Positions 2,915 to 59,455 are shown, counted from the first letter of the stretch. The stretch: 64,000 bases of DNA from Candidatus Desulfarcum epimagneticum (GCA_900659855.1 CAACVI010000045.1:124985-188984); one strand, 5' to 3'. Notes: generated by a model from the sequence alone, not told the origin. Numbers and translations: made by a program.

Positions 2915-2991
2915 GCTGGGTGTAGCTCAGCTAGTAGAGCGCCGGGTTGTGGCCCCGGTTGTCTATGGTTCAAGTCCCTTCACTCACCCCA
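2915..2991 (+). pseudogene. Decayed tRNA-His copy
   Basis: Compared with 938-1014, the first acceptor base is C instead of G, which breaks the 1:72 pair. One D-loop G of the conserved GG is A. The T-stem is TATGG against CCCTT, which loses two pairs. The anticodon GTG and the encoded CCA remain. These changes in three separate arms suggest loss of function. Sequencing error is unlikely because the adjacent tRNA-Arg is unchanged. Confidence 0.75.
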
Positions 2992-3015
2992 TTTTTTTCC
3001 TCCGACTTCCCCCAC

Positions 3016-3092
<77 letters not shown>

Positions 3093-4224: not shown

Positions 4225-4758
4225 ATGCGAAACCGAGACAGAAGGTCGAGAGGGGGGATTCGGTTCGATGAAATTGCCAAGAGAATAACAGGAATCTCAA
4301 CCCCGATATTTGGTGTATCCTGGCAACCGCCTTCACTTGAGGTCGAGGTCGCCAGACGTCTATTGACATATCTGGAAGACCGGCGGGTTTTATATGTTGA
4401 CTATTTTGATGAGCGATTGCGGGACGTGGTCGAATCAGTTATTCAAATCAGAGCGAGACTTACTGATGATTTAGAGCATATAGATCGCTGTTGTGAACTG
4501 GCCAAATCGATCAGTAGCATGCGAGCAGCCTCTCGTAGGTTTCTTAACGAAGTACAAAGGATTGAAACCCGAAAAGTCTTGGTCTCGCTGTATCATTCAC
4601 GAGGCAACGAGACAGCGGCATACTTCTTTGGCGCACTTGGTGAACTACGAGCCACATTCGGCATTCATATAGCGCAAATCGCCGTTCGACACGGAATCGA
4701 TCTTGAAAAATCACTCGCATCAATTCTACCGGCGGATTCAACGGCAGAAAATCCTTGA
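4225..4758 (+). CDS. DUF6650-like protein of unknown function
   Basis: The protein has 177 aa, is soluble and largely helical, with the early motif FDEIAKRITGISTPIFGVSW followed by LEDRRVLY. This N-terminal pattern is one I associate with small proteins annotated DUF6650, but the match is from memory. No catalytic motif, signal peptide or membrane segment is seen. The start ATG follows a purine-rich GAGAGAGGCGG. It lies just after an attC-like site, so it is probably cassette cargo. Its own attC appears to be missing: the next reading frame, which lacks a start, begins 3 bases after the stop. Confidence 0.5.
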   Translation: MRNRDRRSRGGIRFDEIAKRITGISTPIFGVSWQPPSLEVEVARRLLTYLEDRRVLYVDYFDERLRDVVESVIQIRARLTDDLEHIDRCCELAKSISSMRAASRRFLNEVQRIETRKVLVSLYHSRGNETAAYFFGALGELRATFGIHIAQIAVRHGIDLEKSLASILPADSTAENP

Positions 4759-4761
4759 TGA

Positions 4762-5235
4762 CCTACTCATTACATTGAGTATTGGCATGAGCATGCGCCC
4801 GGTTACACGGTAAATGATAATGGCAAAAAAAATATCAAAAAATGGCTCCGCAAATTCTCGTTGGATGAAATTACTTATGCAATGGATGTAGCTGCCGAGT
4901 CATATTTGAAATTTGATGAGAATGGTACCTTGACATCCGAGTCATGGGAGGAAGCTTTTGCCAAAGTCCCAGGCATTTGTCGAGTAGAGCGTGACAGCAA
5001 AGAAAATCCAGATTTAAAAGATTTATATTACATTAGGGGTATAGCAAGAAACCGCTGCGGCTATTTCAACAATTACCAAGCGTTAAACTGGCTTAAAGCA
5101 GCACGAAGCTGGGATGTAGAAATGGATGAACTCAGAGAAATAGCCTGTAATTGCCGAAATTGGACAAATTTTAAAAATAAAACAATTGACGCAATTGAGT
5201 ATCAAAAAGAACTTCAGGGGTATGAAGAAGAATAG
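4762..5235 (+). pseudogene. Gene fragment without a start codon, cassette remnant
   Basis: The frame reads as plausible protein from immediately after two TGA stops (first words HYIEYWHEHAPGYTVND) through KKWLRKFSLDEITYAMDVA to the stop at 5235. The first possible start, a TTG at 4861, falls inside what looks like the conserved helix. The content resembles helical DnaD-like or phage accessory proteins with a W-x-x-K-F/Y-S-x-x-E pattern, but I cannot name the family. The 5' part was probably lost together with the attC site of the preceding gene by a deletion that joined two cassettes. An intact attC-like site follows. Confidence 0.55.
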
Positions 5236-5240
5236 AAAAT

Positions 5241-5331
5241 GTCGAACCATTGCATCCACCATACGGCAAGAAGCGCGGCGGCACTAACGCGGCAAGCTCG
5301 GGTGGGCCGCTGGTGATGCAGGTCGTTAGGC
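5241..5331 (+). other. attC-like integron recombination site
   Basis: The left foot is GTCGAAC and the right foot GTTAGGC, a perfect GTTRRRY. The inner arms GCATCCACC and GGTGATGC pair with one bulged base. The 91-base length is within the usual attC range. It ends 16 bases before the SIR2-like gene. Confidence 0.7.
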
Positions 5332-5346
5332 GCAAGACCGAACGGA

Positions 5347-6378
5347 GTGAGGACAGCATTGGAATTCACATCAGCACTCGAATCTAAGATTACCGAGCAA
5401 CTCCAATCGCAACGTGTTGGCTATCTATTAGGGGCTGGCTCGTCATACCTTAATGGTAATGGTTATCCGCTCTCCTTCGAGTTATGGGACAAGATCAAAG
5501 ACCACATTTCCGATGTTGAGAAGCGCGATGAAATACAACGAAAAATCGATTTTCCGGGAACTAAGGGCATAGAGCATGCCCTTGACTTGCTCGACGGTGG
5601 TGGACCGGAAGAAGGCGATCATCGCCACCTTGTGGCAAAGGCAATCGCCGACCTGTTCCTGCCCCTTGCTCCTCCGCTGGACTCTCATGTTGAGTTTGTA
5701 AGGCGAGGGGCAGCCAAATCGGTGCCGCACCTGAAAGTCTTCAACCTGAACTATGATCCGCTCATCGAGCGAGCAGCAGAACTCGGGGAGGTGCGCCTGT
5801 ACGATGGCTTTGCTGGACACGAGCATGCGTACTTTGATGCAGCTACTTTCGAAGAACGAATTTTCAGGGTCAGGGGAACCCACAAAGGGCGACAAACTGA
5901 TGAAACCGCAAAACCACTTCATCTGCTCAAATTGCATGGGTCTCTCGGATGGTATCACTGTGATACGCATGGTGTACGTCGTTGTGGCTTCGGCGTCTCT
6001 ATTCCAGATAACACCAAGCGTCTGATGATTCCTCCGCAACGGCGCAAGGCGGATGATACCATGACTCAACCCTATCAGGCATTGTGGTCTGCTTTTCGAG
6101 GCGCGCTCGGACAGGATCACAATCCCTTGCATCGCCTTGCCTGCATCGGCTACGGATTTTCGGATGAACACGTCAACACTGTCATCGAGAGCGCGCTCGC
6201 ACGAACTGACTTTACAGTGTTGATATTTGCAAAGGACTTGTCGGATGAAGCTTGGAATCGCTGGAGTGCAAAGAGCAACGTGATCATTGTGACCGAGGAT
6301 CGTTGCGCTATCAAGAGCGAAGTCGGAGCGGGACACCCCAACCTGTGGAAATTTGAATATCTCTCGAAAAGGATCTGA
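5347..6378 (+). CDS. SIR2-like NAD-hydrolase-type defence protein
   Basis: This 343-aa protein has the SIR2 nucleotide-binding loop YLLGAGSSYLNGNG near residue 25, FNLNYDPLIERA near 132 and KLHGSLGWY near 196, in the order seen in SIR2-like effectors that destroy NAD during phage attack. It stands 3 bases before a HerA-type ATPase gene. SIR2-HerA pairs are a described anti-phage system in which the ATPase ring assembles the effector; by gene order and motifs this pair belongs there. The start is drawn at GTG 5347. A TTG at 5359 with GAGG six bases upstream is an equally good or better start. The gene sits between two attC-like sites, so the pair looks like cassette cargo. NADase activity is inferred. 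Confidence 0.75.
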   Translation: MRTALEFTSALESKITEQLQSQRVGYLLGAGSSYLNGNGYPLSFELWDKIKDHISDVEKRDEIQRKIDFPGTKGIEHALDLLDGGGPEEGDHRHLVAKAIADLFLPLAPPLDSHVEFVRRGAAKSVPHLKVFNLNYDPLIERAAELGEVRLYDGFAGHEHAYFDAATFEERIFRVRGTHKGRQTDETAKPLHLLKLHGSLGWYHCDTHGVRRCGFGVSIPDNTKRLMIPPQRRKADDTMTQPYQALWSAFRGALGQDHNPLHRLACIGYGFSDEHVNTVIESALARTDFTVLIFAKDLSDEAWNRWSAKSNVIIVTEDRCAIKSEVGAGHPNLWKFEYLSKRI

Positions 6379-6381
6379 ACT

Positions 6382-8070
6382 ATGCCAAGCGAAACTAATA
6401 CCGTCATAGGGCATCTCGTTGATGTGCAAGGCAATCTGCTAACGGCAACTCTCGTTGAGGATGAACAGGGTCGTGTACCGACCATTACCATTGGGGACGA
6501 AGACATAACCGTAGGTCAGATTGGCTCCTATGTTGTCATTCGGCAGGGCTTGGTGCAGATTATCGCGATGGTTTCGAGGATGACCGAGCAGGAAGCACTT
6601 GCCGTACCGACTATTGAAACTCCCGGGGAGCCAGATGCGCGACTGCCCTACGCTAAGCGTATTGCCCGATTGACACCGATAGGTTCGATATCCACTGACG
6701 GCTACTTTGAGCGCGGAGTCGGTCAGTATCCGACAACTGGTGCTGAGGTTCACGCTATTGGATCCGCCGAGATCACGAAGATGTTCGAGCGGTTTCATGC
6801 CGAGGGGTTCACAGTCGGAGCACTGACGACCCACCCTTCAATCAAAATTTCTTTGTATGCCACCAATCTCTTCGGCAGGCATTTTGCTATTCTAGGTCAA
6901 ACCGGTTCAGGCAAGTCCTGGACAGTGGCCTCGGTCGTGCAGAAGACGGTTGCTGAGATGCCAAGGGCGCACATCATCATTCTAGACTTGCACGGGGAGT
7001 ATTGTTGGAAGTCGAAGGATGGGAAACACCACTACGCATTCGATGATACGATTGTTCGCCATGTGGATGCGAGAGAGTTGGAGATTCCTTACTGGCTAAT
7101 GACGTATGCGGAGCTCTGTGATCTCCTAATCGATCAAACTGACTTTAGCGCGCACAACCAGACAACTGTATTTCGAGACGCACTTAGTGAACAGAGACTC
7201 ATAGAGGGCAAGCGAATAGGACTAGAACGCACGACGCTCGACACTCCGGTTTATTTTGATATCGGAGAGATTCGCAAAGCTCTGGAGGCCAAGAATGGAT
7301 TAGTGCAGGGCGCGACAAAAATGATCAAGGGAACACTAACTGGAGCATTCGATAATTTCCTGATGCGACTTGATAGTAAACTGAATGATGTGAGATATGA
7401 TTTCCTCTTAAACCCAAAGAAACGAAATAACTCAGCCTCACTTTCAACACTGTTACGGGACTTCGTCGGTCTCGGGGAGTCCAAGGTCGCTGTCACTGTC
7501 ATCGACCTGTCCTCTGTTCCATTCGATGTCCGCCCGACAGTTGCTGCACAGATTGGCCGCCTTGCGTTTGAATTCAACTATTGGAATCCTGAGTATCGCG
7601 ACTTTCCGATTATGCTCATTTGTGAAGAAGCGCATTCGTACATCCCGCGCGAGAGCAAGAGCCAGTTTGCAGGCTCGCGAAAGTCGATGGAGCGCATTGC
7701 AAAGGAAGGCCGGAAGTACGGTGTAGGATTGGCCGTGGTAAGCCAGCGGCCGCACGAAGTCTCAGAGACTGTGCTCTCTCAATGCGGTACATTCATATGC
7801 CTGCGAGTCACGAACCCAGACGATCAGGCGTACATTCGAAAGCTTGTGCCAGAGAGCGAAGGTGATCTGGTGAGTGTCCTTGCTGGACTTGGGCGAGGCG
7901 AAGCACTTGTCCTTGGCGAAGCGATCCCGCTTCCAACTCGATTGAAATTCGCTGAACCAAGTCCCGCGCCAAACAGCAATGATATCGACTTTTACAACAA
8001 GTGGAAGGGCGGCCCGGAAGACCTGGATGTTGACGAAATAGTGAAACGGTGGCGCAGTCAGGAACGATGA
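6382..8070 (+). CDS. HerA-family ATPase of a SIR2-HerA pair
   Basis: The protein has 562 aa. Residues 1-100 form a beta-rich segment like the HAS-barrel of HerA proteins. Walker A GQTGSGKS is near residue 173. Walker B is IMLICEEAHSYIP near 411, and a sensor-like VVSQRP follows at about 451. RVTNPDDQAYI near 475 is also typical of this family. HerA proteins form hexameric rings, normally with NurA in archaea and with SIR2 or other effectors in bacterial defence. No NurA gene is present. AAGGA lies 8 bases before the ATG, and the 3-base gap to the SIR2 gene suggests translational coupling. Confidence 0.85.
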   Translation: MPSETNTVIGHLVDVQGNLLTATLVEDEQGRVPTITIGDEDITVGQIGSYVVIRQGLVQIIAMVSRMTEQEALAVPTIETPGEPDARLPYAKRIARLTPIGSISTDGYFERGVGQYPTTGAEVHAIGSAEITKMFERFHAEGFTVGALTTHPSIKISLYATNLFGRHFAILGQTGSGKSWTVASVVQKTVAEMPRAHIIILDLHGEYCWKSKDGKHHYAFDDTIVRHVDARELEIPYWLMTYAELCDLLIDQTDFSAHNQTTVFRDALSEQRLIEGKRIGLERTTLDTPVYFDIGEIRKALEAKNGLVQGATKMIKGTLTGAFDNFLMRLDSKLNDVRYDFLLNPKKRNNSASLSTLLRDFVGLGESKVAVTVIDLSSVPFDVRPTVAAQIGRLAFEFNYWNPEYRDFPIMLICEEAHSYIPRESKSQFAGSRKSMERIAKEGRKYGVGLAVVSQRPHEVSETVLSQCGTFICLRVTNPDDQAYIRKLVPESEGDLVSVLAGLGRGEALVLGEAIPLPTRLKFAEPSPAPNSNDIDFYNKWKGGPEDLDVDEIVKRWRSQER

Positions 8071-8074
8071 GCGG

Positions 8075-8134
8075 CACCTAGACTTTTGCAGCGGATCGCA
8101 AAAAGCCGCGCCCGCTGAAAAGCAACATTATAGC
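8075..8134 (+). other. Degenerate attC-like site after the SIR2-HerA pair
   Basis: CTTTTGCAGCGG pairs with CCGCTGAAAAG with one bulged G, the hallmark extrahelical base of attC. The feet CACCTAGAC and CATTATAGC only partly fit the consensus. It begins within 5 bases of the HerA gene stop. Confidence 0.55.
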
Positions 8135-8154
8135 TAAACGGAGTCAGATTATGA

Positions 8155-8274
8155 GTTGACTATGAAATTTTATCTTTCAAAGATTTTCACGAAGTAGTCG
8201 AGAGATACAAAGATAAAACTATTGTATATCGCGGTGTTAAATCTTGTAAATATGAGCTTATGCCTAAAATTTGA
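8155..8274 (+). pseudogene. FRG-domain gene fragment
   Basis: The frame reads SFKDFHEVVERYKDKTIVYR then GVKSCKYELMPKI and stops. This matches the start of the FRG domain (named for its F/Y-R-G motif), found in nuclease and defence proteins. Only about 40 codons are present. A TGA stands just upstream, and the nearby ATG at 8151 is out of frame. It is probably the stump of a cassette gene following the attC-like site. 8275-8449 holds no recognisable gene, only short direct repeats of GGGGATAAT. Confidence 0.5.
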
Positions 8275-8449
8275 AGATTAAAAAAATTCAAAGAGGATAA
8301 TGGGGATAATGGGGACGCCTATGATTTTAGGGGGATAATGTGTGAGGAATAGGGGTCGGGCCGTCGCAAAAATTTGTAATAACAGGAAAAAGACTAAAAA
8401 AAAGGCCCTAAATTGGTAACTTCTCAAAAAGTCAGGGGTAAAGGCGCAA

Positions 8450-8908
8450 TTATGCGCTGGAACAAGTCATTCTGAATTTTACAATTTCAGCCAGGGGCGG
8501 ATATTTATTCCGAGACTCAAGTCGATCTTTTAGAAAGTCCCAAAATGAAATGTCCAATTTGCGGCAAGTTTTTTTAAGACTGGTAAAAGTGTCTCGGCAT
8601 CGCCGTCCGGATGCGCTCCGGGTGGATCCGCTTATTTTTCGTTTTTTGACATATTCCCTGATGTCTCGTTCGCTCAAATTGTTGTGCAGGGGGATATCAG
8701 GCCGTTTTAAAACCAGCAGCAGTTCGGATTTATTCCGCCACAGGCGTTTTAATGCCAGGTCCAATGAAGCAAATCCGGTTTTACGGGTGAAAATCTCGTC
8801 AAATCGTTTTTCTAAAGACCGCTTTTGCGATTTCTCCGGATTTAAGCGATATTTTTTAACCCTACAACGCAAGTTAATTTTCTCTAAATGAAAATAGGGG
8901 ACAGGCAA
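8450..8908 (-). pseudogene. Transposase C-terminal remnant (IS66-like)
   Basis: The readable 152 aa include LHNNLSERDIREYVKKRKIS and GSTRSASGRRCRDTFTSL. These resemble the C-terminal part of IS66-type DDE transposases (DNN..ER.LR...RKN...GS..G). The N-terminal catalytic part is missing. The frame enters from a RAYT-type repeat at 8891-8917, which seems to have cut the gene. No terminal inverted repeats were recognised. It separates the left cassettes from intI. Confidence 0.55.
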
Positions 8909-8917
8909 ATAATACTT
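8891..8917 (+). repeat. RAYT-associated dispersed repeat, copy 2
   Basis: AAAATAGGGGACAGGCAAAT followed by AATACTT, the full-length form of the repeat. It lies between the truncated transposase and the 3' end of intI. Confidence 0.8.
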
Positions 8918-8947
8918 CTTTCATCTGAAAATCCCATGCGACACGTT

Positions 8948-9943
8948 TCACAACTCCAAATCATCCAGCGGACTTTTGATGCGGGAGATATCCTTATCCA
9001 TCACATGCGTATATCGCTCAGTGGTCTTGACATCCGCATGACCCATCAGCTCCTGCAACATGCGAATATTGATTCCATTTTCCAGCATGGCGGTGGCAAA
9101 GCTGTGTCGAAGGGTGTGACAAGTGACCCGTTTGTCAATTTTTGCCTGGTCGGCGGCTCTTTTGACCGCTTTTTGCAAGCCGGATTCAATGACATGATGC
9201 CGACGCTCACGTCCGGATCGAGGATCTATGGAACGTTTTTTAGACGGAAATATGTATTGCCAAACGGTTTCCATGGCGGCGTTTTTATATTTCCTCTCCA
9301 GGGACGACGGAATATAAACTTCCCCGAAGCCTGCTTCAAGATCGGAATGGTGAAGGCTTTTAACATATTCGATATGATTACGAAGGACAGGGATAATGGG
9401 GTTGGCCAATATTGTGCTTCGCCATTTGTCTCCCTTGCCGAGCACATGAATCCTTTTTCGGTCAAAATCAACGTCCTTGATTCGGAGGCGCACACATTCC
9501 ATGAGTCGCAGTCCTGAACCGTACATAAGCTTTGCCATCAGGGCATGTGTTCCTTCAATATGTCTGAAAAACCGTCTGATTTCTTCCCTGCTGAGCACAG
9601 TGGGAAGATTGGGTTTCTTCTTTGAGCGGATGGGTTGAATTTTACCATCTATGGGTATGTCAAGAACCTGGCGATATAGAAAGACAATGGCGTTGAGCGC
9701 CTGTCGCTGAGTGGAAGCCGACACTTTTCCATTGACCGCCAAATCCGATAAAAAGCGTTCGATGTCCCTGACGCCCAGGTCACGAGGATGAGTCTGGCCG
9801 CCAAAAAAATGAATATAGCGTCGTATCCATTGGCAATAGGTCTGCTCAGTCCGATATGCATAATGATGGTAACGCATCACTTGAAGAATCTGATCCATCA
9901 ATTTTAGTTTTGGATCAGGACGAAATTTTGCTTGATTTTCCAT
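8948..9943 (-). CDS. intI: Integron integrase IntI (tyrosine recombinase)
   Basis: This 331-aa tyrosine recombinase has catalytic Arg in GSGLRLMECVRLR near residue 143, the HTLRH box near 277, LMGHADVKTTERYTH with the nucleophilic Tyr near 310, and an N-terminal SAM-like domain starting around LMDQILQVMRYHHYAYRT. Between the two catalytic boxes it carries AMETVWQYIFPSKKRSIDPR followed by RRHH. This is the extra patch that separates IntI from Xer and phage integrases and binds the extrahelical bases of folded attC. It is transcribed away from the cassettes at 10141-14744, the classic integron layout. The start ATG at 9943 is followed by MENQAKFRPDPKLKL. All key residues are present, so it could be active. 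Confidence 0.9.
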   Translation of the reverse strand: MENQAKFRPDPKLKLMDQILQVMRYHHYAYRTEQTYCQWIRRYIHFFGGQTHPRDLGVRDIERFLSDLAVNGKVSASTQRQALNAIVFLYRQVLDIPIDGKIQPIRSKKKPNLPTVLSREEIRRFFRHIEGTHALMAKLMYGSGLRLMECVRLRIKDVDFDRKRIHVLGKGDKWRSTILANPIIPVLRNHIEYVKSLHHSDLEAGFGEVYIPSSLERKYKNAAMETVWQYIFPSKKRSIDPRSGRERRHHVIESGLQKAVKRAADQAKIDKRVTCHTLRHSFATAMLENGINIRMLQELMGHADVKTTERYTHVMDKDISRIKSPLDDLEL

Positions 9944-10140
9944 ATTGCATCGCCTAATATCACAATATACAGAAAAAGAAAAATGTTTTTTTATATGTGG
10001 AAAATTTTTCCATATTTGATTCTTTAATATAAGGATAAATGTAAAATAGCGCTATTTGAGACATATCTATTACTGTCGATATCATGGAATTTTTCTATTT
10101 ATCAACACTGTTAGCAGCTTTTAAAGGATAATCCAAACGC
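9944..10140. promoter_or_regulatory. intI upstream region and putative attI
   Basis: This is the gap between the divergent intI and first cassette gene, where attI and the cassette and integrase promoters lie in known integrons. It is very AT-rich. The best crossover candidate is GTTAGCA at 10110-10116, which matches the first five positions of GTTRRRY. I could not identify a convincing LexA box or sigma-70 promoter pair by eye. Confidence 0.45.
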
Positions 10141-10680
10141 ATGATGGATAAATTGACGAGTTTTACTGATTACTTTCGAAAGATTCCGGCTGCTTTTTTA
10201 GTAGCAATAGTGACGGTTCTTGGACTGATATTATTCCTGCCCGAAAATTATGCGAAGATTGTGGCAGTAGATGGATTCCGAAACAAATACAGAGTTTATC
10301 TTGGCCCTGCTTTTCTGCTGACATTGTCATTCTGTGTTGCAAGGATTTTCATTTTCATAATGCAAGGACAAGCGCAACGAAAAGCTCTCAAAATAAAGCA
10401 GGAATATTTGCATCGGCTAACACCGGAGGAAAAAGGATATTTAGTTCCGTACATTGATGGGCAACAGAATAGTGTATATGTAGGAATGGAAGACGGTGTG
10501 ATGTCTGGGCTAAGAGCAAAAGGGATCACTTATTTGGCTGCTAATATGGGGGATGTGCTAAATGGATTTGCATTTAACCTTCAACCTTGGGCGCGGGAGT
10601 ACTTAGAAAGTAACCATCACCTCCTTGATGGGCATGCGGGCCGCCCAAGGACGCCTCAACAAAGGATATTCTCCAGATAA
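10141..10680 (+). CDS. SieB-like superinfection exclusion membrane protein
   Basis: The protein has 179 aa and two membrane helices (about residues 17-33 and 53-72). The conserved words LFLPENYAKIVAVDGFRNKY and HRLTPEEKGYLVPYI are ones I associate with the superinfection exclusion protein B family. In lambdoid prophages SieB is an inner-membrane protein that aborts the lytic growth of other phages. The C-terminal tail after HHLLDG is probably read-through into non-homologous DNA. It is the first gene after the putative attI, the position with the strongest expression in integrons. The next attC is only found after the following gene, so the two may share a cassette. Confidence 0.7.
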   Translation: MMDKLTSFTDYFRKIPAAFLVAIVTVLGLILFLPENYAKIVAVDGFRNKYRVYLGPAFLLTLSFCVARIFIFIMQGQAQRKALKIKQEYLHRLTPEEKGYLVPYIDGQQNSVYVGMEDGVMSGLRAKGITYLAANMGDVLNGFAFNLQPWAREYLESNHHLLDGHAGRPRTPQQRIFSR

Positions 10681-10722
10681 CTTTTTAGCAGTAGGCAACA
10701 AAACACAATATAGATTGTAAAA

Positions 10723-11424
10723 ATGGAAAAATGGAAACAGATCGGGCCGTTAAAATTTAAATACAAAAAAGATGTTACTGCCCATTTCAAAAGAATTTTA
10801 AACTCCTATGACTTTCAAGAATCTCTTGATGAAGAAGATTTTAATGATGTTTTAAATCTGCTAAGAATTCATCCAAAAGCACAGGAAAAAATCGGCCCAG
10901 GGATTAAAGAAATTATAGTTGATGAAACCCGGTATAAAACAAAATGTTTTAATGCTGTCAGACTTGACTCTTCATGTGAAATTTTTTCATATCTTAAATG
11001 CATAAATGGCAGTTTATCTCCTTTGACAAAATTTAGCAAAACGTGCCGGGATGCTATCTCTGAAGACTTAAGATTGGTAAAATTATCTTTTTTTAAAAAA
11101 AATTCACAAAAAGGGAAGGTTAAATGCCAAGAAACAGGAGAATTGAGCTTTTGGGAAGAACTAAATGTTGATCATAGGCAACCAAATACATTTTCCGTAA
11201 TTGTGGATAGGTTTATCGAATTGCATGGGATAGATATAGAGACAGTTGAGTACATTGAAACTATCGATAACGTTTATTTATTCAAAGCTGATGATCTGTC
11301 TAAAAAATTCAGACAGTATCACAAAGAAAAGGCAAATCTACGATTGGTAAGAAAGGATAAAAATTTAGGCAGATCTCATTTGGCACGAAATAAGAGGCAA
11401 AGAAAAGACTTAAAAATAGAATAG
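10723..11424 (+). CDS. DUF3223 domain protein with HNH-like C-terminal region
   Basis: Residues 5-95 show the DUF3223 pattern known from plant DCL and bacterial proteins: FKYKKDVTAHFKRILNSY, then LLRIHPKAQEKIGPGI, then KCFNAVRLDSSCEIFSYLKC. Residues 130-165 (CQETGELSFWEELNVDHRQP) look like the start of an HNH nuclease fold, with Cys plus an Asp-His pair. The C-terminus is strongly basic and suits nucleic-acid binding. The protein has 233 aa, is AT-rich and lysine-rich, and has no membrane segment. The gene follows sieB by 42 bases without an attC between and is closed by a long attC at 11435. Nuclease activity is inference. Confidence 0.6.
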   Translation: MEKWKQIGPLKFKYKKDVTAHFKRILNSYDFQESLDEEDFNDVLNLLRIHPKAQEKIGPGIKEIIVDETRYKTKCFNAVRLDSSCEIFSYLKCINGSLSPLTKFSKTCRDAISEDLRLVKLSFFKKNSQKGKVKCQETGELSFWEELNVDHRQPNTFSVIVDRFIELHGIDIETVEYIETIDNVYLFKADDLSKKFRQYHKEKANLRLVRKDKNLGRSHLARNKRQRKDLKIE

Positions 11425-11434
11425 CACACGAATT

Positions 11435-11563
11435 TGCTAACAAAACGCTGGAGCGGGACCGGGCGTACTGCGAACCTTTTCGGAAATATGTGGTTTAGGA
11501 AACTGAAAACTTTTATCTGAGGTTTCGGGTTAAACGCCCGGCCCCTCAGCTCAAGCGTTAAGC
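11435..11563 (+). other. attC site (129 bases)
   Basis: The left foot is TGCTAAC and the right foot GTTAAGC, a perfect GTTRRRY. The arms GGAGCGGGACCGGGCGT and ACGCCCGGCCCCTCAGCTC pair with bulges. The length is similar to the large VCR-type attC sites of Vibrio. It begins 10 bases after the DUF3223 gene stop. Confidence 0.85.
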
Positions 11564-11578
11564 TCCACAAGGAATCAT

Positions 11579-12301
11579 ATGGAATTTAAAGATTGGCTTC
11601 CAATGTTTGGTATCATTATTGGATGGATGTTAAGCCAGCTTGCATCCCACTACAAGGATACAAGAGAAGAGAGAAAATTACTATCTATAGCTATGTCCAC
11701 TTTCCTATACGTGTATTTCGATCGCGTAAGATATCGCCAAATATTAAAAGTATTGAATGTGAGGTTAGGTGATAAGTTAGAAGTAATATCGAAGCAAGAT
11801 TTAAGCTCTGAAGAGAAAATAGCTGAAAATAATAAGCTTCTTGTTGAGGTCGAATCTGCGAGGATGATTTTACTTATAGATCACCCTGAAACAGAGGCAA
11901 GAAACAAAGAGGCTCTCTCGAAAGCATTGGAATCTATATCGCAGGTTGATTCCCTAATTTCATATAAAGCAAAATCACTCATTGAAGACGACTATCTTTA
12001 CAAAAAAACGGATCTACGTGGCCTACTAAATCAACCAATAGTCTATTTAGAGTCATATGGCTCTTTAATGGGGGCAGTTGAATCATTTAACACCGAACTA
12101 TGCAATCTAATACGAATCACAGCTCTTAGACATGGTGCTCTTTGCTATATTAGAACTTTTTTATTCCTGTGGTATGAGCGCTCAAAACTAAAAAAGAGCG
12201 ATCAAAGGGCCAATCAGTTTTTAGAAGCCTTTGAAAACTCAAACAGCGAGCAACAAGAGCTTAACAATAAAATGCAGCCGACCGCTGAAAGCGGCGGCTG
12301 A
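11579..12301 (+). CDS. Cassette protein with N-terminal membrane anchor, unknown function
   Basis: This 240-aa protein begins MEFKDWLPMFGIIIGWMLSQ, a single hydrophobic segment at residues 6-22, followed by KDTREERKLL and a long helical cytoplasmic region. No family is recognised. The last residues NNKMQPTAESGG are encoded by the attC site itself, because the stop codon lies inside the hairpin. That is a frequent signature of integron cassettes. Its AT-rich codon use differs from the chromosomal genes after 19 kb. Confidence 0.7.
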   Translation: MEFKDWLPMFGIIIGWMLSQLASHYKDTREERKLLSIAMSTFLYVYFDRVRYRQILKVLNVRLGDKLEVISKQDLSSEEKIAENNKLLVEVESARMILLIDHPETEARNKEALSKALESISQVDSLISYKAKSLIEDDYLYKKTDLRGLLNQPIVYLESYGSLMGAVESFNTELCNLIRITALRHGALCYIRTFLFLWYERSKLKKSDQRANQFLEAFENSNSEQQELNNKMQPTAESGG

Positions 12302-12315
12302 TTTAGACGTTATGC
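12259..12315 (+). other. attC site (57 bases)
   Basis: The left foot GCTTAAC is a perfect RYYYAAC and the right foot is GTTATGC. AAATGCAGCCGACCGC pairs with GCGGCGGCTGATTT, leaving an extrahelical G and A, with the loop TGAAA. Of all the sites in the window this has the most canonical short attC form. Confidence 0.9.
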
Positions 12316-12346
12316 CCAAAATACCCAATCTAATGGAGAAGATCGT

Positions 12347-12832
12347 ATGGGAAATGACACAGAAAGCTTAAGGCAATACGCTTGGGATTATTTTCTTGCT
12401 CACGCACAAGCTCGTCTTGCAACTTTTCGATTCTACCTCTTATATTGTTCAATAATCATGGCTGGTCTATATGCTGTCCTTTCTAAAGGAGAGAACTTAT
12501 GGATAGGTGCGATATTGTCGTTTTTGTTAACTTTTATTTCTTGGGTTTATTTGAGAGTAGATATCAGACATAAACAAATAATCAAAAGAGCTCAAGAAGC
12601 CTTAATGGAGTTAGAATCGAAACTCGATCTGCCAGATCAAGATGGAGGCCCTAATAAATTAAAACTTTTTTCACGAGAAAAATATATTACCTCAACCATG
12701 CCTCGATTTCCTGCAAGTTTATCACCAAAGGCTCATTGCAGTTATTCAACAAGTATTTATATGGTATTTTACTTATTTATAATTTTAGGGCTGGTTGGCG
12801 GTTTTGGGATAATTCTATCAATTATCAATTAA
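12347..12832 (+). CDS. Small three-helix membrane protein of unknown function
   Basis: The protein has 161 aa. Two adjacent membrane helices at about residues 27-42 and 47-68 are followed by a soluble stretch and a third helix at about 137-158. The first word AWDYFLAHAQARLATFRFYL resembles small membrane proteins that accompany defence or signalling genes, but I cannot assign a family. It follows an attC site and is followed within 14 bases by the radical SAM gene with no attC between, so the three genes 12347-14744 probably form one cassette. A role as a membrane effector is only a guess from context. Confidence 0.6.
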   Translation: MGNDTESLRQYAWDYFLAHAQARLATFRFYLLYCSIIMAGLYAVLSKGENLWIGAILSFLLTFISWVYLRVDIRHKQIIKRAQEALMELESKLDLPDQDGGPNKLKLFSREKYITSTMPRFPASLSPKAHCSYSTSIYMVFYLFIILGLVGGFGIILSIIN

Positions 12833-12846
12833 ACGTAGGCAGAATA

Positions 12847-14193
12847 GTGAAATATAAAATTCTTTTTATAAATTCACCATTATTCATGGCTGAAAGTAAA
12901 GATAATAGTGAGGACAAATTACCACCAATTGGATTAGGATATATAGCAACTAGTATCAGTAATAATGGCCATGACGTAGAATTTTTGGATGCTGTTTCTG
13001 GCGAAATAGGCGTGAAACGAATCATAGAAAAGATTAAATCTGCAAATCCAGATTTTGTCGCAATAAATATATTTTCGACCAACTATGAACTTGTCAAGAA
13101 AATTGTAACATCAGTTGATATTAAAGTTAATTTCATTATTGGAGGAATTGTAACGAAGTCAATTTACAAGCTGATAAATGATTGGGATACAGACAACCAT
13201 ATTGATATTGTTTTTGGAGACGGGGAATTAATAACTGAAGGGATTATTAATAACAACTTGATCCAAGAACCTGACGCAATAGCGGATAATAGAAGGTTTT
13301 TTTTGGTAGATAGCAAATCTCCATATTTTGTTCAAAACATTTCGAATTTACCTCTAAACCGCTCTTTTTTTGAATATGAGCCCATCTTCAACCACCATGG
13401 AGATATTGAAATATCAGTAGTAACCAGCAGAGGCTGTATTCATGATTGTGCATTTTGCTCGGCAGCTAGATCTATGAATAGAGAAATAAAAATTCGAAAA
13501 AAACAAAAAGAAAGCATAAAAAATGAGCTAAAACAAATATCTACCATGTATCCCAACGTTACAGCGATAAGAATTCTAGATGATCTTTTTTTAAAGAACA
13601 GACAATCTCTTCCTGAAGCGATAGAAATTTTTTCTGAAACCCATTACAATTGGCGCTCAATGGCCCATTTGAAAACCTTTAAGGGGGTTGACCAAAACCT
13701 TTTAATAGAACTTAAAAAATCCGGCTGCATTGAGCTATTTATTGGTATTGAATCTGGCTCGGACAGAGTTCTGAAAATCATTAACAAGGAGCGTGCAGAT
13801 ATTGATACTTTGGCAATTCTTCATAATATATTTAAAGCTCAAATAGGAGTAAAAGGCTATTTTATTCTTGGTATGCCTTCTGAAACAGAAGCCGAGTTGA
13901 TAGAAACCTACGAATTTGCTAAAAAAATAAAAAATATTTCAATTGAGACTGGTAGTTGTTTTAGGGTGAGCGCTTTTCAATTCAGGCCGTATCATGGTAC
14001 TAAAATTTACAACCATTTGTTTGCTGAATCTTCAGAAGATAATCCAAGTATTACGCAAAACATAAATCTTACAAAATTAATTGGAGGCCGATCAGGCTTC
14101 AATTTTTCAAGTGGCAATTACTCAGAGTGCAATGAAAAAACATTGCTTAAATATATTAAGTCTATCTTGGATCTTAATAATTTTCAGGTGTGA
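12847..14193 (+). CDS. B12-binding-type radical SAM protein
   Basis: This 448-aa protein opens with a Rossmann-like domain (KILFINSPLF, then LPPIGLGYIATSISNNGHDV) of the B12-binding type found in radical SAM class B enzymes. The radical SAM cluster motif SRGCIHDCAFC lies near residues 194-204, with Cys 197, 201 and 204. IELFIGIESGSDRVLKIINK and GYFILGMPSETEAEL further on are the usual barrel strands. Such enzymes use a 4Fe-4S cluster, S-adenosylmethionine and often cobalamin for methylations or rearrangements. The substrate is unknown. The GTG start is chosen to fit the domain start, and the upstream frame only overlaps the preceding gene. Its stop overlaps the next gene as TGATG. Confidence 0.8.
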   Translation: MKYKILFINSPLFMAESKDNSEDKLPPIGLGYIATSISNNGHDVEFLDAVSGEIGVKRIIEKIKSANPDFVAINIFSTNYELVKKIVTSVDIKVNFIIGGIVTKSIYKLINDWDTDNHIDIVFGDGELITEGIINNNLIQEPDAIADNRRFFLVDSKSPYFVQNISNLPLNRSFFEYEPIFNHHGDIEISVVTSRGCIHDCAFCSAARSMNREIKIRKKQKESIKNELKQISTMYPNVTAIRILDDLFLKNRQSLPEAIEIFSETHYNWRSMAHLKTFKGVDQNLLIELKKSGCIELFIGIESGSDRVLKIINKERADIDTLAILHNIFKAQIGVKGYFILGMPSETEAELIETYEFAKKIKNISIETGSCFRVSAFQFRPYHGTKIYNHLFAESSEDNPSITQNINLTKLIGGRSGFNFSSGNYSECNEKTLLKYIKSILDLNNFQV

Positions 14194-14744
14194 TGATGGA
14201 TTTGAACACTATCTTAAAATGTGACAGGTGTTGTTTAAGGGAAAACCAATTGCCTCTTTTGGATAATACAAAAAGTGCTGATATTTTTTGGGTTGGTTTG
14301 TCAGCTGTAAAAGTAGAAAATATAAAAAACGATACTCCTTTGTGCGAAAAGACAAATTCAGGAAAGCTGATAAGTGCAATAGAAGAAACTATGGGGAATG
14401 TTAGTTTTTACAAAACAAATCTTGTTAAGTGTCTCCCCTTAAATGAATCAAAAATTAGGTACCCAAATAGCAAAGAAATGTCTGCTTGCTATGATCATTT
14501 AATCTACGAAATCAATGCGTTTAAGCCGAAAGTAGTTTTTTTGCTAGGAAAAATAGTCTCTGATTTCATAGCAAAGAGAGAAAAAATTACTATTGGGCCA
14601 TTGCACCCTAATTTCGAATATATAAAACTCAACATTATTAATACAACTATAGTTCCCATACATCATCCATCTTACATTCAAATATATAAGCGAAAGAAAG
14701 TTAATAATTATATGTCAGCAGTGAAGAACATTTGCGAAGCATAA
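14193..14744 (+). CDS. Uracil-DNA-glycosylase-superfamily protein with 4Fe-4S cysteines
   Basis: This 183-aa protein matches the family 4/5 UDG layout. Cys10-x2-Cys13, TNLVKC (Cys about 80) and SACYDHL (Cys about 98) give the four cluster ligands. NLVKCLPLNE and LLGKIVSDF follow the usual order, and HHPSYI near 156 is the third motif. The first active-site motif is WVGLSAVKVEN where known enzymes have G-E-A-P-G or G-L-A-P-G, so the acidic catalytic position differs and substrate choice may be altered. It starts inside the stop codon of the radical SAM gene (TGATG), which implies coupled translation. An attC site overlaps its last codons. Confidence 0.8.
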   Translation: MMDLNTILKCDRCCLRENQLPLLDNTKSADIFWVGLSAVKVENIKNDTPLCEKTNSGKLISAIEETMGNVSFYKTNLVKCLPLNESKIRYPNSKEMSACYDHLIYEINAFKPKVVFLLGKIVSDFIAKREKITIGPLHPNFEYIKLNIINTTIVPIHHPSYIQIYKRKKVNNYMSAVKNICEA

Positions 14745-55028: not shown

Positions 55029-58000
55029 CTATTTCGGGTTAATCAATTTTTGGATGATATGGGCGTGGTATATCGTGCCGATCTCACCCTTGTCATCATC
55101 CCTCTTATACTTGCCCTGTTCATTTTCATTTTCTTCAAAATTATGATAGATTGTTGTAAAACTCTTTTTGCCTATCAAATCGTCTTCAGCATCTTTTTCA
55201 TATTGTGCTATATCTGCAAAATGAACAAAATATTTCTTCTTTAAATGTTCCTTGATGCTCTTAAGCATCTCATTCGTAGACGTTCTGTTTTGAAGCACAC
55301 CACCGCAAAGAACCACGCCGTTCATTTTATGGTATTCATGGATCAGCATAATCACGTCTGCCAGAAGAGAGCCTGCGATGGTGAAGATTTTTTTGAATTT
55401 TTTCTTGTAATGTGCACCATCTTCTTCAGCAATATCCCTCAGCAATCTCCTGGCAATATCGAAACAGTTGTCGCATTTACACTGAAACGTCACAGGATCC
55501 TTTCCTGTAACCTTAAGCATGTTTAATATCTTGATCACACGCTCCCCGCCGATAGTTTTTACTTTGTTTATAAGCTGACAAATGGTGTCGAAACCCATCG
55601 CGCTTAAAACTTCATTGACTTTTCGAAAATCTTTTTCCTTCTCCTTGCATATTCTTTCCAATGTTTTCTTTGAAGTGACATTTTCTAATTCCTTTTGATA
55701 CAGACAATCAATCCCTATTTCTTTTATCAATTCCTCCGGCGAGTTGCCGGATACAAGAAAAAAATCCCCCAATATACCCACTTCATAGCTTGAAACTGAA
55801 ACGCTTTCAGATTCTTCCGCCACCTCTTTAAAAACATTGGGCAGAAGACTGGAAGATGCAAAATCATTTACATTGCCCCTGGGAAAACTTCCTTCGCTCT
55901 CCAAATCATGTTTGGTGTGATATTCCAAATACACGTTGAGAGTCATTTTGCCAAATTCGTTCAGCCCATCATGAATTCTGTTTCGGGTGAGAATCTGACC
56001 GGCGGTTCCGGTCCCAAGTTTTAAAATGGCCCATTTGGGATCAAACGGCGCTTTATCTTTTGACTGTGCTTCCTCTTTTAAGGAAAAATATTTTTTTTCA
56101 TTTTTATCATCCACCATGATGGCCAGGGCTTCGGCATACCCGTCATTGCAAATGCCGATGGTGATCTTTTCTTCTCCGGGAAACCTGTTCTTCAACTCTT
56201 TGATTAGATTTAATTTTCGGATGCTTTCCACGTTGTTTCTCAGGACCCAGTTTGATCCCACGCTGTCATCAAAATATTTTAATATTCCAGATGCCCCGGC
56301 AATTTTCTGGGCGCGAATGGCCCCCGGCCAGCATACCCCGACTATGGCCACATTTTCCCATCTTTTGGGATCCTTTAGCAACTTGTCGATGTTCTCTTTG
56401 ATTTTCTGAGCAAATTCCCCCAAACTCTTATATTTATCATCTTTATCCGAAGGATTTTTTTGAGTCCCGCAACGGCTCTCGGAGTCCCCTGAAGAAGGCT
56501 TCCAGCGTGAAATATCTGATATATCATTTGTTTCGTAAATTTTAAATTTTATTGATGTGGCGCCGATATCCACTCCAATTGCCAGATTCTGGATTGGCCC
56601 GCTATCTTTCTGGCTATTCTTACCTTGCTCTTTATTCGGTTTGTCCGGATCTTTCAAAGGGTTTTCTAATTTGTCCTTTCTTTTTTCGATAATTTCTAAA
56701 AAGGTTTCTTCATATTTATCAGGATCCACGTATCTGTCTCCCACCAGGTTCACATCGTGGGAACGCATAAAGCACTCTATGTAGTGCAAAAGAACATGAT
56801 AACCATAGGTTTTATGTTCAAGTATCTTCTTGATTCCTTTGCTCCAGGAGGTTTCCCCGCCATCTTGATTGCTTTTAATTTCCAGCCTGTCGTATCCAGC
56901 GCAAACGCCAATATTAATGGCGTAGGCGGCTAAAAATTTTTCAATGGTTGGAGCCATATGTGGATAATTTTCAAAAAAATCGTCAATACCCCTTTGAGGC
57001 ACATAAACTTCAAAATATCTCTTGAAATCATCATCAAACTGCCCGTGAAAATAAAAAAGGAGTTCTTTTATGCCTTCACGATAATCTTTTAAATATCTAA
57101 AAAAACGGGCCAACAAGGGAAGTGGGAAATAATCCTTTATGGGAAAAGGGTTGTAATCATCTTCGCCATTGTCTTCTTCCGCAAAATTTTTAATTATTTC
57201 CCATTCATTATGATTTTTTTTATAATGAGGGGCGCCTATCAGGTTTAAAAGGGCTTTTTCTTTTTTTAGCCTGAATTCATAAACCGCCACTTTTTTTTTG
57301 GCTTCTTCCGGTGCGACATCTTTAAATTCATACTTATTATTAAGAGAGTCGAAATTTTTAAGAGAGTCGAAATTTTTCAAATCTTCTTTCATTTCTCCGT
57401 CTTCGGATTTTTCCAAACCCGTAGAAAGAAACCGCGATTGCGCATAATGGCAGGTCAGGTATGTTTCCTTTTTACTATCATCTCCCGTCTTCCGCGGATC
57501 CCAAAAAGCTATAAAGTTTTTAAATAATTCTAAATCATGCTTGCCCCTAGATATTTCCTTGTCAATTTCACAAATAGGCAAATCATATAAGACGGCCTTA
57601 ATTCCATCAGTATCAATACTATTATGATTCTCTTCCTTATAGGTTTTTCCCCATGCTTCTATTATTATTTTATCGATGGTATCTTTCTTAGAGCCCGAGC
57701 GGTCCCCAGGCGAATCATAACAAACGGCCGCCATAGTCCCCAAAAGTTTCTTTGAAACCCCAATTGCATTGCCTTCATAATAAATTTCATCATAGGTTTT
57801 TTGAAATAACCGCCCATTGAGAACCAAACAGGCGATCTTATTGTATTTTATTAGAAACTTTATCTTTTCTTCGATTTCATTTTTTTTCACGCTCTTTCCA
57901 AAAAAGCCTTCAACATCATAATCCTTAAATCTATCATCAAATTTTTCACATGCCACATATTCATAAAGCGGAGAACTTTTCCATTCGCAAAACAGAACAG

Positions 58001-58247
58001 CGATTATCAATACCAACGCTTCTGTCTTCCCAATATCCAGATCACTGTTTAACATGTCCTGAAATCTTTTGAATTCTTTGATAATCCTGTCCCGATTCTC
58101 TTTTTCTTTCATGTCTCGCAAATATTCAGGAACGTAAATGGTTTGCGACGGAAACTTGCGGGCATGGTCTCTGTCATAAAGCAACAACTCATTGATAATA
58201 GCTTCAATAAGATAGATCATTGATTGTTTTTCATCTTCTTTCATCAT
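55029..58247 (-). CDS. Large ROK-domain (sugar-kinase-like) protein with novel N-terminal half
   Basis: The protein has 1072 aa. Residues 550-1060 are a ROK/hexokinase fold: VDIGATSIKFKIYE near 557 (phosphate 1), ICNDGYAEALA near 690, WAILKLGTGTAGQILTRNRI near 742 (phosphate 2) and MNGVVLCGGVLQNRTSTNE near 970 (adenosine). The zinc-binding motif of classic ROK proteins is not clearly present, and long insertions occur. Residues 1-545 form a charged, helix-rich region I cannot assign. A 5-residue duplication (KNFDSLKNFDSL, about residue 296) comes from a tandem 18-base repeat. The gene is clearly AT-richer than its neighbours. GGGGGAAG precedes ATG 58247. An adjacent glycosidase-like gene lies upstream. 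Confidence 0.65.
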   Translation of the reverse strand: MMKEDEKQSMIYLIEAIINELLLYDRDHARKFPSQTIYVPEYLRDMKEKENRDRIIKEFKRFQDMLNSDLDIGKTEALVLIIAVLFCEWKSSPLYEYVACEKFDDRFKDYDVEGFFGKSVKKNEIEEKIKFLIKYNKIACLVLNGRLFQKTYDEIYYEGNAIGVSKKLLGTMAAVCYDSPGDRSGSKKDTIDKIIIEAWGKTYKEENHNSIDTDGIKAVLYDLPICEIDKEISRGKHDLELFKNFIAFWDPRKTGDDSKKETYLTCHYAQSRFLSTGLEKSEDGEMKEDLKNFDSLKNFDSLNNKYEFKDVAPEEAKKKVAVYEFRLKKEKALLNLIGAPHYKKNHNEWEIIKNFAEEDNGEDDYNPFPIKDYFPLPLLARFFRYLKDYREGIKELLFYFHGQFDDDFKRYFEVYVPQRGIDDFFENYPHMAPTIEKFLAAYAINIGVCAGYDRLEIKSNQDGGETSWSKGIKKILEHKTYGYHVLLHYIECFMRSHDVNLVGDRYVDPDKYEETFLEIIEKRKDKLENPLKDPDKPNKEQGKNSQKDSGPIQNLAIGVDIGATSIKFKIYETNDISDISRWKPSSGDSESRCGTQKNPSDKDDKYKSLGEFAQKIKENIDKLLKDPKRWENVAIVGVCWPGAIRAQKIAGASGILKYFDDSVGSNWVLRNNVESIRKLNLIKELKNRFPGEEKITIGICNDGYAEALAIMVDDKNEKKYFSLKEEAQSKDKAPFDPKWAILKLGTGTAGQILTRNRIHDGLNEFGKMTLNVYLEYHTKHDLESEGSFPRGNVNDFASSSLLPNVFKEVAEESESVSVSSYEVGILGDFFLVSGNSPEELIKEIGIDCLYQKELENVTSKKTLERICKEKEKDFRKVNEVLSAMGFDTICQLINKVKTIGGERVIKILNMLKVTGKDPVTFQCKCDNCFDIARRLLRDIAEEDGAHYKKKFKKIFTIAGSLLADVIMLIHEYHKMNGVVLCGGVLQNRTSTNEMLKSIKEHLKKKYFVHFADIAQYEKDAEDDLIGKKSFTTIYHNFEENENEQGKYKRDDDKGEIGTIYHAHIIQKLINPK

Positions 58248-58375
58248 AACTTCCCCCTTTTTATGACAAAAACGCGACATATGGTTTCTTCTCATAAACT
58301 CGAAAATTTTATGCGCCAACCTGAACATTTCAAAAAAACCCATTTCCAAATCTGCGAAAAACACACCATCCGATT

Positions 58376-59329
58376 TTATTTAAACGTATGGTCCTGAAGC
58401 TCAACGATGAGATATGCGGCGCCGGGAGAGCGGTGATTGGGAGCGGCGACAAGGCATCGGTATTCACCGGCCACGGCGCCGGCGATGCCCTCATGAAAAA
58501 ACTGTGCGGTAATCGATCCGCTGTTATCCAGACAAAGCGCCCGTTTGACGCCCCGATCTCCCATCTGCCTTCCCAAATCCTCCAATCTCCCGGAGGCCAC
58601 CAGCTGACATAAATTTCCTTCCCCATCCAACCCGATCATATTATGCAGATACCCATCCTCGCGCTGAAGATCATTCTCAACGGCGTAACCATTGAGCGCC
58701 TCAAAAGCCGATTCAGGGGAAGCGGTCATGTTTTCCATGAATATCTTCTGCAAGGATTTCCACTGGTCCCGGGTTTTATCCGTGGCGTCGGGATGCGACC
58801 CCCGGGGCAGACGCCACACATGGGAGTGATCCGCGGCCTCAGGGACAATCATCCTGAAAAGCGTGTCTTTATCCGCGTCATCCCAAAGGACCGGAGGCCC
58901 GGAAACAAACCAGGAAAAATTCAGACCGGCATCGGGATCCCATGACTTGGGATCCCATTTTTCAATAACCAGCTTCCCCTTTTTTTCCCCAAACAAATAA
59001 TAGGGTCTGCTTTTAAAAAGAATGCCATACTCCTCGGAGACAGAGATGGGGGTCGGCGTATGATCCTTCAGCCAGGCGACGCAGCGAAGGTTTGCAAGCG
59101 CGTTTCTTACGCTGAGGACCATAAAAGGCCGGTTGCAGTCGAGGATCCTTTTTTCCATCAACATTTTTTTAAGATGTTCTTTCACCGTCAATCTTGAGGC
59201 TTTTGTATGGCCCCTGGGGCCGGCAAGCTCCTTTTTTTCAGGGGGAACAAACTGGCTCAATGACAGGTGAATTTTATGGATTCCGGTGATTTTCTGCTCA
59301 AACCGGACATTGGTTTGAAATGACGGCAT
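58376..59329 (-). CDS. Phosphodiester-glycosidase-like (NAGPA-type) domain protein
   Basis: This 317-aa protein has a C-terminal part (about residues 225-317) that resembles the phosphodiester glycosidase fold. LHNMIGLDGEGNLCQLVASG and RALCLDNSGSITAQFFHEGI parallel the D-G-x-G-x and L-D-G-G-G-S strands of the human uncovering enzyme relatives, with N-S-G-S in place of G-G-G-S. The N-terminal 220 residues are unassigned and contain KKGKLVIEKWDPKSWDP. No signal peptide is seen. It starts 128 bases upstream of the ROK gene in the same direction. Cleavage of a phosphate-linked sugar that the ROK protein then uses is an attractive but unproven idea. Confidence 0.5.
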   Translation of the reverse strand: MPSFQTNVRFEQKITGIHKIHLSLSQFVPPEKKELAGPRGHTKASRLTVKEHLKKMLMEKRILDCNRPFMVLSVRNALANLRCVAWLKDHTPTPISVSEEYGILFKSRPYYLFGEKKGKLVIEKWDPKSWDPDAGLNFSWFVSGPPVLWDDADKDTLFRMIVPEAADHSHVWRLPRGSHPDATDKTRDQWKSLQKIFMENMTASPESAFEALNGYAVENDLQREDGYLHNMIGLDGEGNLCQLVASGRLEDLGRQMGDRGVKRALCLDNSGSITAQFFHEGIAGAVAGEYRCLVAAPNHRSPGAAYLIVELQDHTFK

Positions 59330-59398
59330 GTGATTTCCTTTGCAAATCTAAAATCAATGTCATTAACTTAAGAGAACAATAAGGCCATGAAAGTCAGA

Positions 59399-59455
59399 AA
59401 CCTCCTTTTTATGAAACCTTTGATCCGTTCACAAAAAGGAGGTTTAATTATATTC
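59399..59455 (-). terminator. Inverted repeat after the HAO-like gene
   Basis: AAACCTCCTTTTT and AAAAAGGAGGTTT are perfect 13-base arms around a 30-base loop. The site lies between the leftward HAO-like gene and the next leftward gene. It ends in T/A runs on both strands, so it may terminate in either direction. Confidence 0.6.

Follow-up and report, generated by a model that had tools for sequence, protein, structure and literature searches.

A rare linked pair of genes encoding a divergent ROK-like protein and an NAGPA-like protein in Candidatus Desulfarcum epimagneticum and two other genomes of its phylum

Two adjacent minus-strand genes are described here from a 64,000-nucleotide stretch, hereafter the window, of the 3.26 Mb genome of Candidatus Desulfarcum epimagneticum (GCA_900659855.1, CAACVI010000045.1:124985-188984; G000:C45:124985-188984 in our numbering). 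The upstream gene encodes a 317-amino-acid protein resembling NAGPA-type phosphodiester glycosidases, and the open reading frame (ORF) downstream of it, after 128 bp, encodes a 1072-amino-acid protein whose C-terminal half resembles the ROK sugar kinases (Table 1). Two further genomes of the phylum carry full-length homologues of both proteins: G362 (44% identity for the ROK-like and 61% for the NAGPA-like protein), from the same order as the window genome and another family, and G214 (24% and 26%), from another class. In each of the three genomes the two genes share a strand, with two genes between them in G362 and about 370 bp in G214, where their order is reversed. The two protein families therefore co-occur and are physically linked, forming a pair that is rare but real. 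As the two genes have been kept together in three distantly related genomes, they probably have a joint role in a sugar-handling step not described before. An earlier note on the window, made from its sequence alone, had reported the 1072-amino-acid ORF, which we confirm, and had looked to pairing in unrelated genomes for support; the pairing found, with the neighbour conserved, spans three genomes of different families within one phylum.

Profile searches delimited the distribution of both families in samples of this phylum, in which the pair is known from three occurrences. Among 395 genomes sampled from the phylum, the long-ROK profile matched two (G000 and G214), and among 321 sampled from the order it matched two as well (G000 and G362); the NAGPA-like profile again selected G000 and G214 among 297 genomes of a phylum sample. 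If the two profiles were independent, they would agree on two genomes out of about 297 with a chance of about 2e-5, adjacency left uncounted. The long ROK gene is absent from sister genomes of G214 and G362, and the observed pattern fits sporadic gain and loss. Plasmids and phages gave no match for the window proteins, nor for a CofD fusion encoded beside the G362 pair; pattern scans of genome contigs and viral contigs also returned nothing, a weak negative given the poor patterns available (a low-complexity acidic stretch). Matches from the first searches at two further loci (L005 and L007) proved spurious, with no related gene in the neighbourhood.

The C-terminal half scored 20.1 bits (E 5e-4) against the Pfam ROK family (PF00480), compared with 19.4 bits for the G362 homologue and 27.3 for that of G214, only the last exceeding the cut-off of 22.9; the three C-terminal halves are clearly homologous to one another (E 3e-24). 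The phosphate and adenosine motifs claimed for it are present, and the order DIGAT, WPG, N701-D702, GTGTAG, E764 and GG is collinear in alignment with canonical ROK kinases from G362 and G214. N701/D702, E764 and GTGTAG are invariant across the three homologues, whose identity falls to 24%. In the human ROK kinase GNE, the sugar site comprises N516, D517, E566, H569 and E588, zinc is liganded by H569 together with C579, C581 and C586, and the type I zinc motif, GHx9-11CxCGx2G(C/H)xE, has been called characteristic of all ROK members (PMC2742894). This motif was not found in any of the three homologues, where EFGK is not followed by CxCGxxGC and a long insertion occupies the place of the zinc cluster. 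Because of this absence the C-terminal half is, on its sequence, classed as ROK-like and not as a canonical ROK, and the name ROK protein given by the earlier note holds as a distant, divergent relationship. The window protein shares with the ROK sugar kinases (GNE N-acetylmannosamine kinase, bacterial glucokinases, NagK) the DxGxT motif, WPG segment, Asn-Asp, GTG loop, Glu and GG in identical order, but differs from them in the lost zinc motif with its His replaced by Lys, in the length of its ROK half (523 residues against about 300), and in being fused to a region of about 550 residues with no recognized fold, to which the G362 homologue adds a C-terminal NUDIX domain scoring over the Pfam cut-off. 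A match to HypF_C_2 (22.8 bits) lies below cut-off and fits the shared ASKHA fold, and no HypF relationship was read from it.

The N-terminal half of the window protein had been said to match nothing known, and searches of Pfam (to E 10), NCBIfam, PADLOC, PHROGs and PDB sequences bore this out, turning up neither a known regulator nor any other domain; Pfam to E 10 revealed no helix-turn-helix or other DNA-binding domain in it. The corresponding halves of the window and G362 proteins share 41% identity, and residues 371-482 are weakly similar to, and collinear with, the G214 protein (hhalign score 31.8; best of 40 shuffles 25.4). Single-sequence AlphaFold structure predictions were of low confidence, with a predicted local distance difference test score of 43 for this half and 37 for the 317-amino-acid protein. 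An internal duplication, by which the N-terminal half would be a second kinase copy, was discarded (hhalign of N- against C-terminal half, E 0.17), as were weak matches to BET3, TraY, UxuA and nanobodies, which were judged to be chance.

The description of the upstream gene as phosphodiester glycosidase-like stood with profile methods and was weak by single sequence: neither the window protein nor its G362 homologue has a Pfam match, and PF09992 gives the G214 homologue 16 bits against a cut-off of 25. A profile of the 317-amino-acid protein and its two homologues found NAGPA as its best PDB matches (E 0.026 and 0.035), and hhalign comparison with 26 NAGPA proteins from related genomes gave a probability of 84% and an E of 7e-6 (reversed control, E 0.69). 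The likeness to the NAGPA/DUF2233 phosphodiester glycosidases (human uncovering enzyme, PDB 6PKU) lies in the C-terminal strand-helix-strand core, 'GxDxxGNL...G...DL...GVK.A..LD..GS'. In contrast to that family, the canonical DGGGS reads DNSGS in the window and G362 proteins and DSGGS in that of G214, the Arg before the core strand (RTAIG strand) is His in all three homologues, and the N-terminal 180 residues or so of the window protein are its own. Owing to the change in DGGGS and the loss of the Arg, catalysis by the NAGPA-like protein is uncertain. Unlike animal NAGPA, which acts in the secretory pathway, the 317-amino-acid sequence has no evident signal peptide; the protein is apparently cytoplasmic and very divergent. 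Ordinary NAGPA genes occur in 35 of 148 genomes and none was picked up by the NAGPA-like profile, by which measure the partner is a distinct subfamily.

Table 1. Features of the ROK-like/NAGPA-like locus (window positions)
Feature	Position	Strand	Basis
Long ROK-like protein, 1072 aa	55029..58247	-	ORF from ATG; full-length G362 homologue, 44% identity, E 1e-200; G214 C-terminal-half homologue, E 3e-17
C-terminal half, residues 550-1072, ROK/ASKHA-like kinase fold	55032..56600	-	Pfam ROK score; alignment with canonical ROKs of G362 and G214
Adenosine-motif glycines G982-G983 (VVLCGG)	55299..55304	-	alignment
E764-F-G-K767: sugar-binding Glu retained, Lys in place of the zinc/sugar His in all three homologues	55947..55958	-	alignment
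Phosphate-2 motif GTGTAG (745-750), invariant in three homologues	55998..56015	-	alignment
N701-D702, counterpart of GNE N516/D517 (sugar-binding Asn, catalytic Asp), invariant in three homologues	56142..56147	-	alignment
Phosphate-1 motif D560-I-G-A-T	56556..56570	-	alignment with homologues and canonical ROKs
N-terminal half, residues 1-549, alpha-rich (low-confidence model)	56601..58247	-	no Pfam match to E 10; no PDB sequence match (G362 and window profile)
NAGPA-like protein, 317 aa	58376..59329	-	homologues with 61% identity in G362 and 26% in G214
NAGPA-type core, residues 223-273, IGLDGEGNL...GVKRALCLDNSGS	58511..58663	-	profile comparisons
Hairpin, 18-nt arms, between upstream cytochrome gene and pair	59398..59445	not assigned	z = -3.95

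The longest frame of the ROK-like gene opens with GTG at 58364 and would encode 1111 amino acids; the ATG at 58247 is the likely start, being preceded by the purine-rich GGGGGAAG and coinciding in alignment with the point where the G362 homologue begins. The pair is flanked by a multihaem cytochrome operon and a sulphur transporter. Since a strong hairpin divides it from the preceding cytochrome operon, it looks like a unit of its own, with the hairpin plausibly acting as a terminator or leader. The 3' arm of this hairpin, read on the minus strand, holds AAGGAGGT, which is Shine-Dalgarno-like and lies about 70 bases upstream of the NAGPA-like gene start.

Other genes accompany the pair elsewhere. 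The G362 cluster encodes, in this order, a CofD-nucleotidyltransferase fusion, an HExxH protein, the NAGPA-like protein, a radical S-adenosylmethionine (SAM) protein, a ThuA-like protein and the long ROK protein. The fusion (L008:1305-3560, plus strand) is a 751-amino-acid protein in which a CofD/YvcK-like domain is joined to a GlmU-like nucleotidyltransferase; the CofD domain scores 76.6 bits against TIGR04357 and 78.7 against TIGR01826, both far below cut-off. It belongs to the same family as the NCBIfam GAK-system CofD-like protein and YvcK (GlmR), from which it differs in the GlmU-like fusion and in occurring only in G362, with no counterpart near the window pair. GlmR/YvcK, a CofD homologue, makes uridine diphosphate (UDP)-N-acetylglucosamine (PMC10128056). 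Upstream of the G362 cluster and divergent from it (L054:1737-4388, minus strand) lies a gene for an 884-amino-acid protein with an RNase Z/metallo-beta-lactamase (MBL)-like N-terminal part and a sigma-54 activator domain, an unusual sensor-regulator fusion that resembles RtcR and the 'GPMC system' regulator. In G214, the genes after the long ROK gene encode, in order, the NAGPA-like protein, a UDP-sugar dehydrogenase, a sugar-1-phosphate nucleotidyltransferase and a second dehydrogenase, both dehydrogenases being of the UDP-glucose/guanosine diphosphate-mannose type. Type I CRISPR-cas genes with a repeat array (L055, about 4357-12784) lie some 8 kb from the G214 pair.

The long ROK gene was also noted to be AT-rich in a GC-rich setting, and this was borne out: its GC content is 0.38 and its GC at third codon positions (GC3) 0.40, against a GC3 of about 0.65-0.78 in most flanking genes. 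The 317-amino-acid gene, with a GC3 of 0.58, is intermediate between the two, and Lys accounts for 12% of the long ROK proteins of the window and G362. Because the ROK gene is the AT-richest of its own cluster in G362 and G214 as well as in the window, its low GC belongs, at least in part, to the gene itself and is not on that count alone a sign of recent transfer. The suggestion of a transferred island agrees with the sporadic distribution of the pair, but no integrase, tRNA or long flanking repeats were found beside the window copy.

We tentatively favour the view that the pair is a rare two-protein module of cytoplasmic sugar-phosphate or nucleotide-sugar chemistry, whose catalysis and substrate we infer from sequence; the sugar-phosphate sensing or scavenging proposed in the earlier note is plausible from the protein families and from the neighbour genes in other genomes. 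In such a module, the NAGPA-fold protein would bind or cleave a phosphodiester-linked or nucleotide-linked sugar in the cytoplasm, and the ROK half would phosphorylate the released or a related sugar using adenosine triphosphate or a different phosphoryl donor. The sugar site might be reshaped by the insertion that stands where the zinc cluster would be, and the N-terminal half might serve for ligand sensing or partner docking. Elsewhere, sugar-nucleotidyltransferases, UDP-sugar dehydrogenases or the fused NUDIX domain could make a nucleotide sugar from the sugar phosphate or regenerate the sugar phosphate from one. Several points weigh against this proposal. The role given to the N-terminal half is a guess. 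The link to nucleotide sugars comes from G362 and G214, with different enzymes in each, because no nucleotidyltransferase or dehydrogenase adjoins the pair in the window genome. Either protein could be catalytically dead, since the ROK half has Lys for His and lacks the second sugar-binding Glu and the zinc cluster, and the NAGPA motif is degraded to DNSGS with Arg changed to His.

These losses, together with the long insertion, are equally the substance of the chief rival, a catalytically silent sensor or regulator, which we consider rather unlikely: the ROK half would bind a sugar or nucleotide sugar, the N-terminal half would signal to a partner, and the NAGPA-like protein would likewise bind sugar without catalysis. 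Repressors are common among ROK proteins, the N-terminal half makes up half of the whole protein, and the G362 cluster is divergent from the gene for the MBL and sigma-54 activator protein. Nevertheless, the catalytic Asn-Asp and both phosphate loops are retained in all three homologues, and the N-terminal half, in which no DNA-binding domain was recognized, is with about 550 residues far larger than the short helix-turn-helix region at the N-terminus of known ROK repressors.

An origin of the pair as cargo for biological conflict or defence on a variable locus is improbable. The sporadic distribution and AT-richness would suit it, and defence is possible as a weak hint from distant context, namely the CRISPR-cas locus near the G214 copy and the MoaA/viperin-like radical SAM protein and RtcR-like regulator of the G362 cluster. 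However, the PADLOC matches to these last two proteins are generic superfamily matches and a weak one to the G362 ROK protein sits in its NUDIX tail, neither window protein matches PADLOC at E 10, no phage, plasmid or viral-contig homologue was found, and nothing defence-like stands beside the window copy. Still less probable is that two unrelated, horizontally acquired genes became neighbours by chance. The occurrences are few, the genes are compositional outliers, and their spacing and order vary; yet one-strand linkage persists in three genomes at identities down to 24-26% and through rearranged order, and the presence and absence of both families coincide in the phylum samples.

A bolder and doubtful extension goes beyond the two-protein module itself: the N-terminal half would be a domain of a new kind, sensory or enzymatic, and the pair would form the constant part of a nucleotide-sugar system not yet described, serving modification or signalling, whose accessory proteins are interchangeable (NUDIX, CofD-nucleotidyltransferase, UDP-sugar dehydrogenases, radical SAM, sigma-54/MBL regulator). 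The pair joins two widespread, rarely associated protein families in one conserved unit, presents a ROK-like kinase with its zinc cluster replaced and its size doubled, and brings to light an N-terminal domain without recognized relative. Should the pair be active, it would represent a new step inside the cell, in sugar salvage or at the level of sugar nucleotides.

Elsewhere in the window, positions 10141-14744 are very AT-rich (GC 0.32-0.42) and carry small unassigned ORFs in a GC-rich contig, making this segment another island candidate. A tRNA-His/tRNA-Arg block occurs twice, at 939-1115 and 2916-3092, about 1.98 kb apart and apparently by tandem duplication; the second tRNA-His scores 42.7 bits in Rfam against 65.1 for the first and may be decaying.

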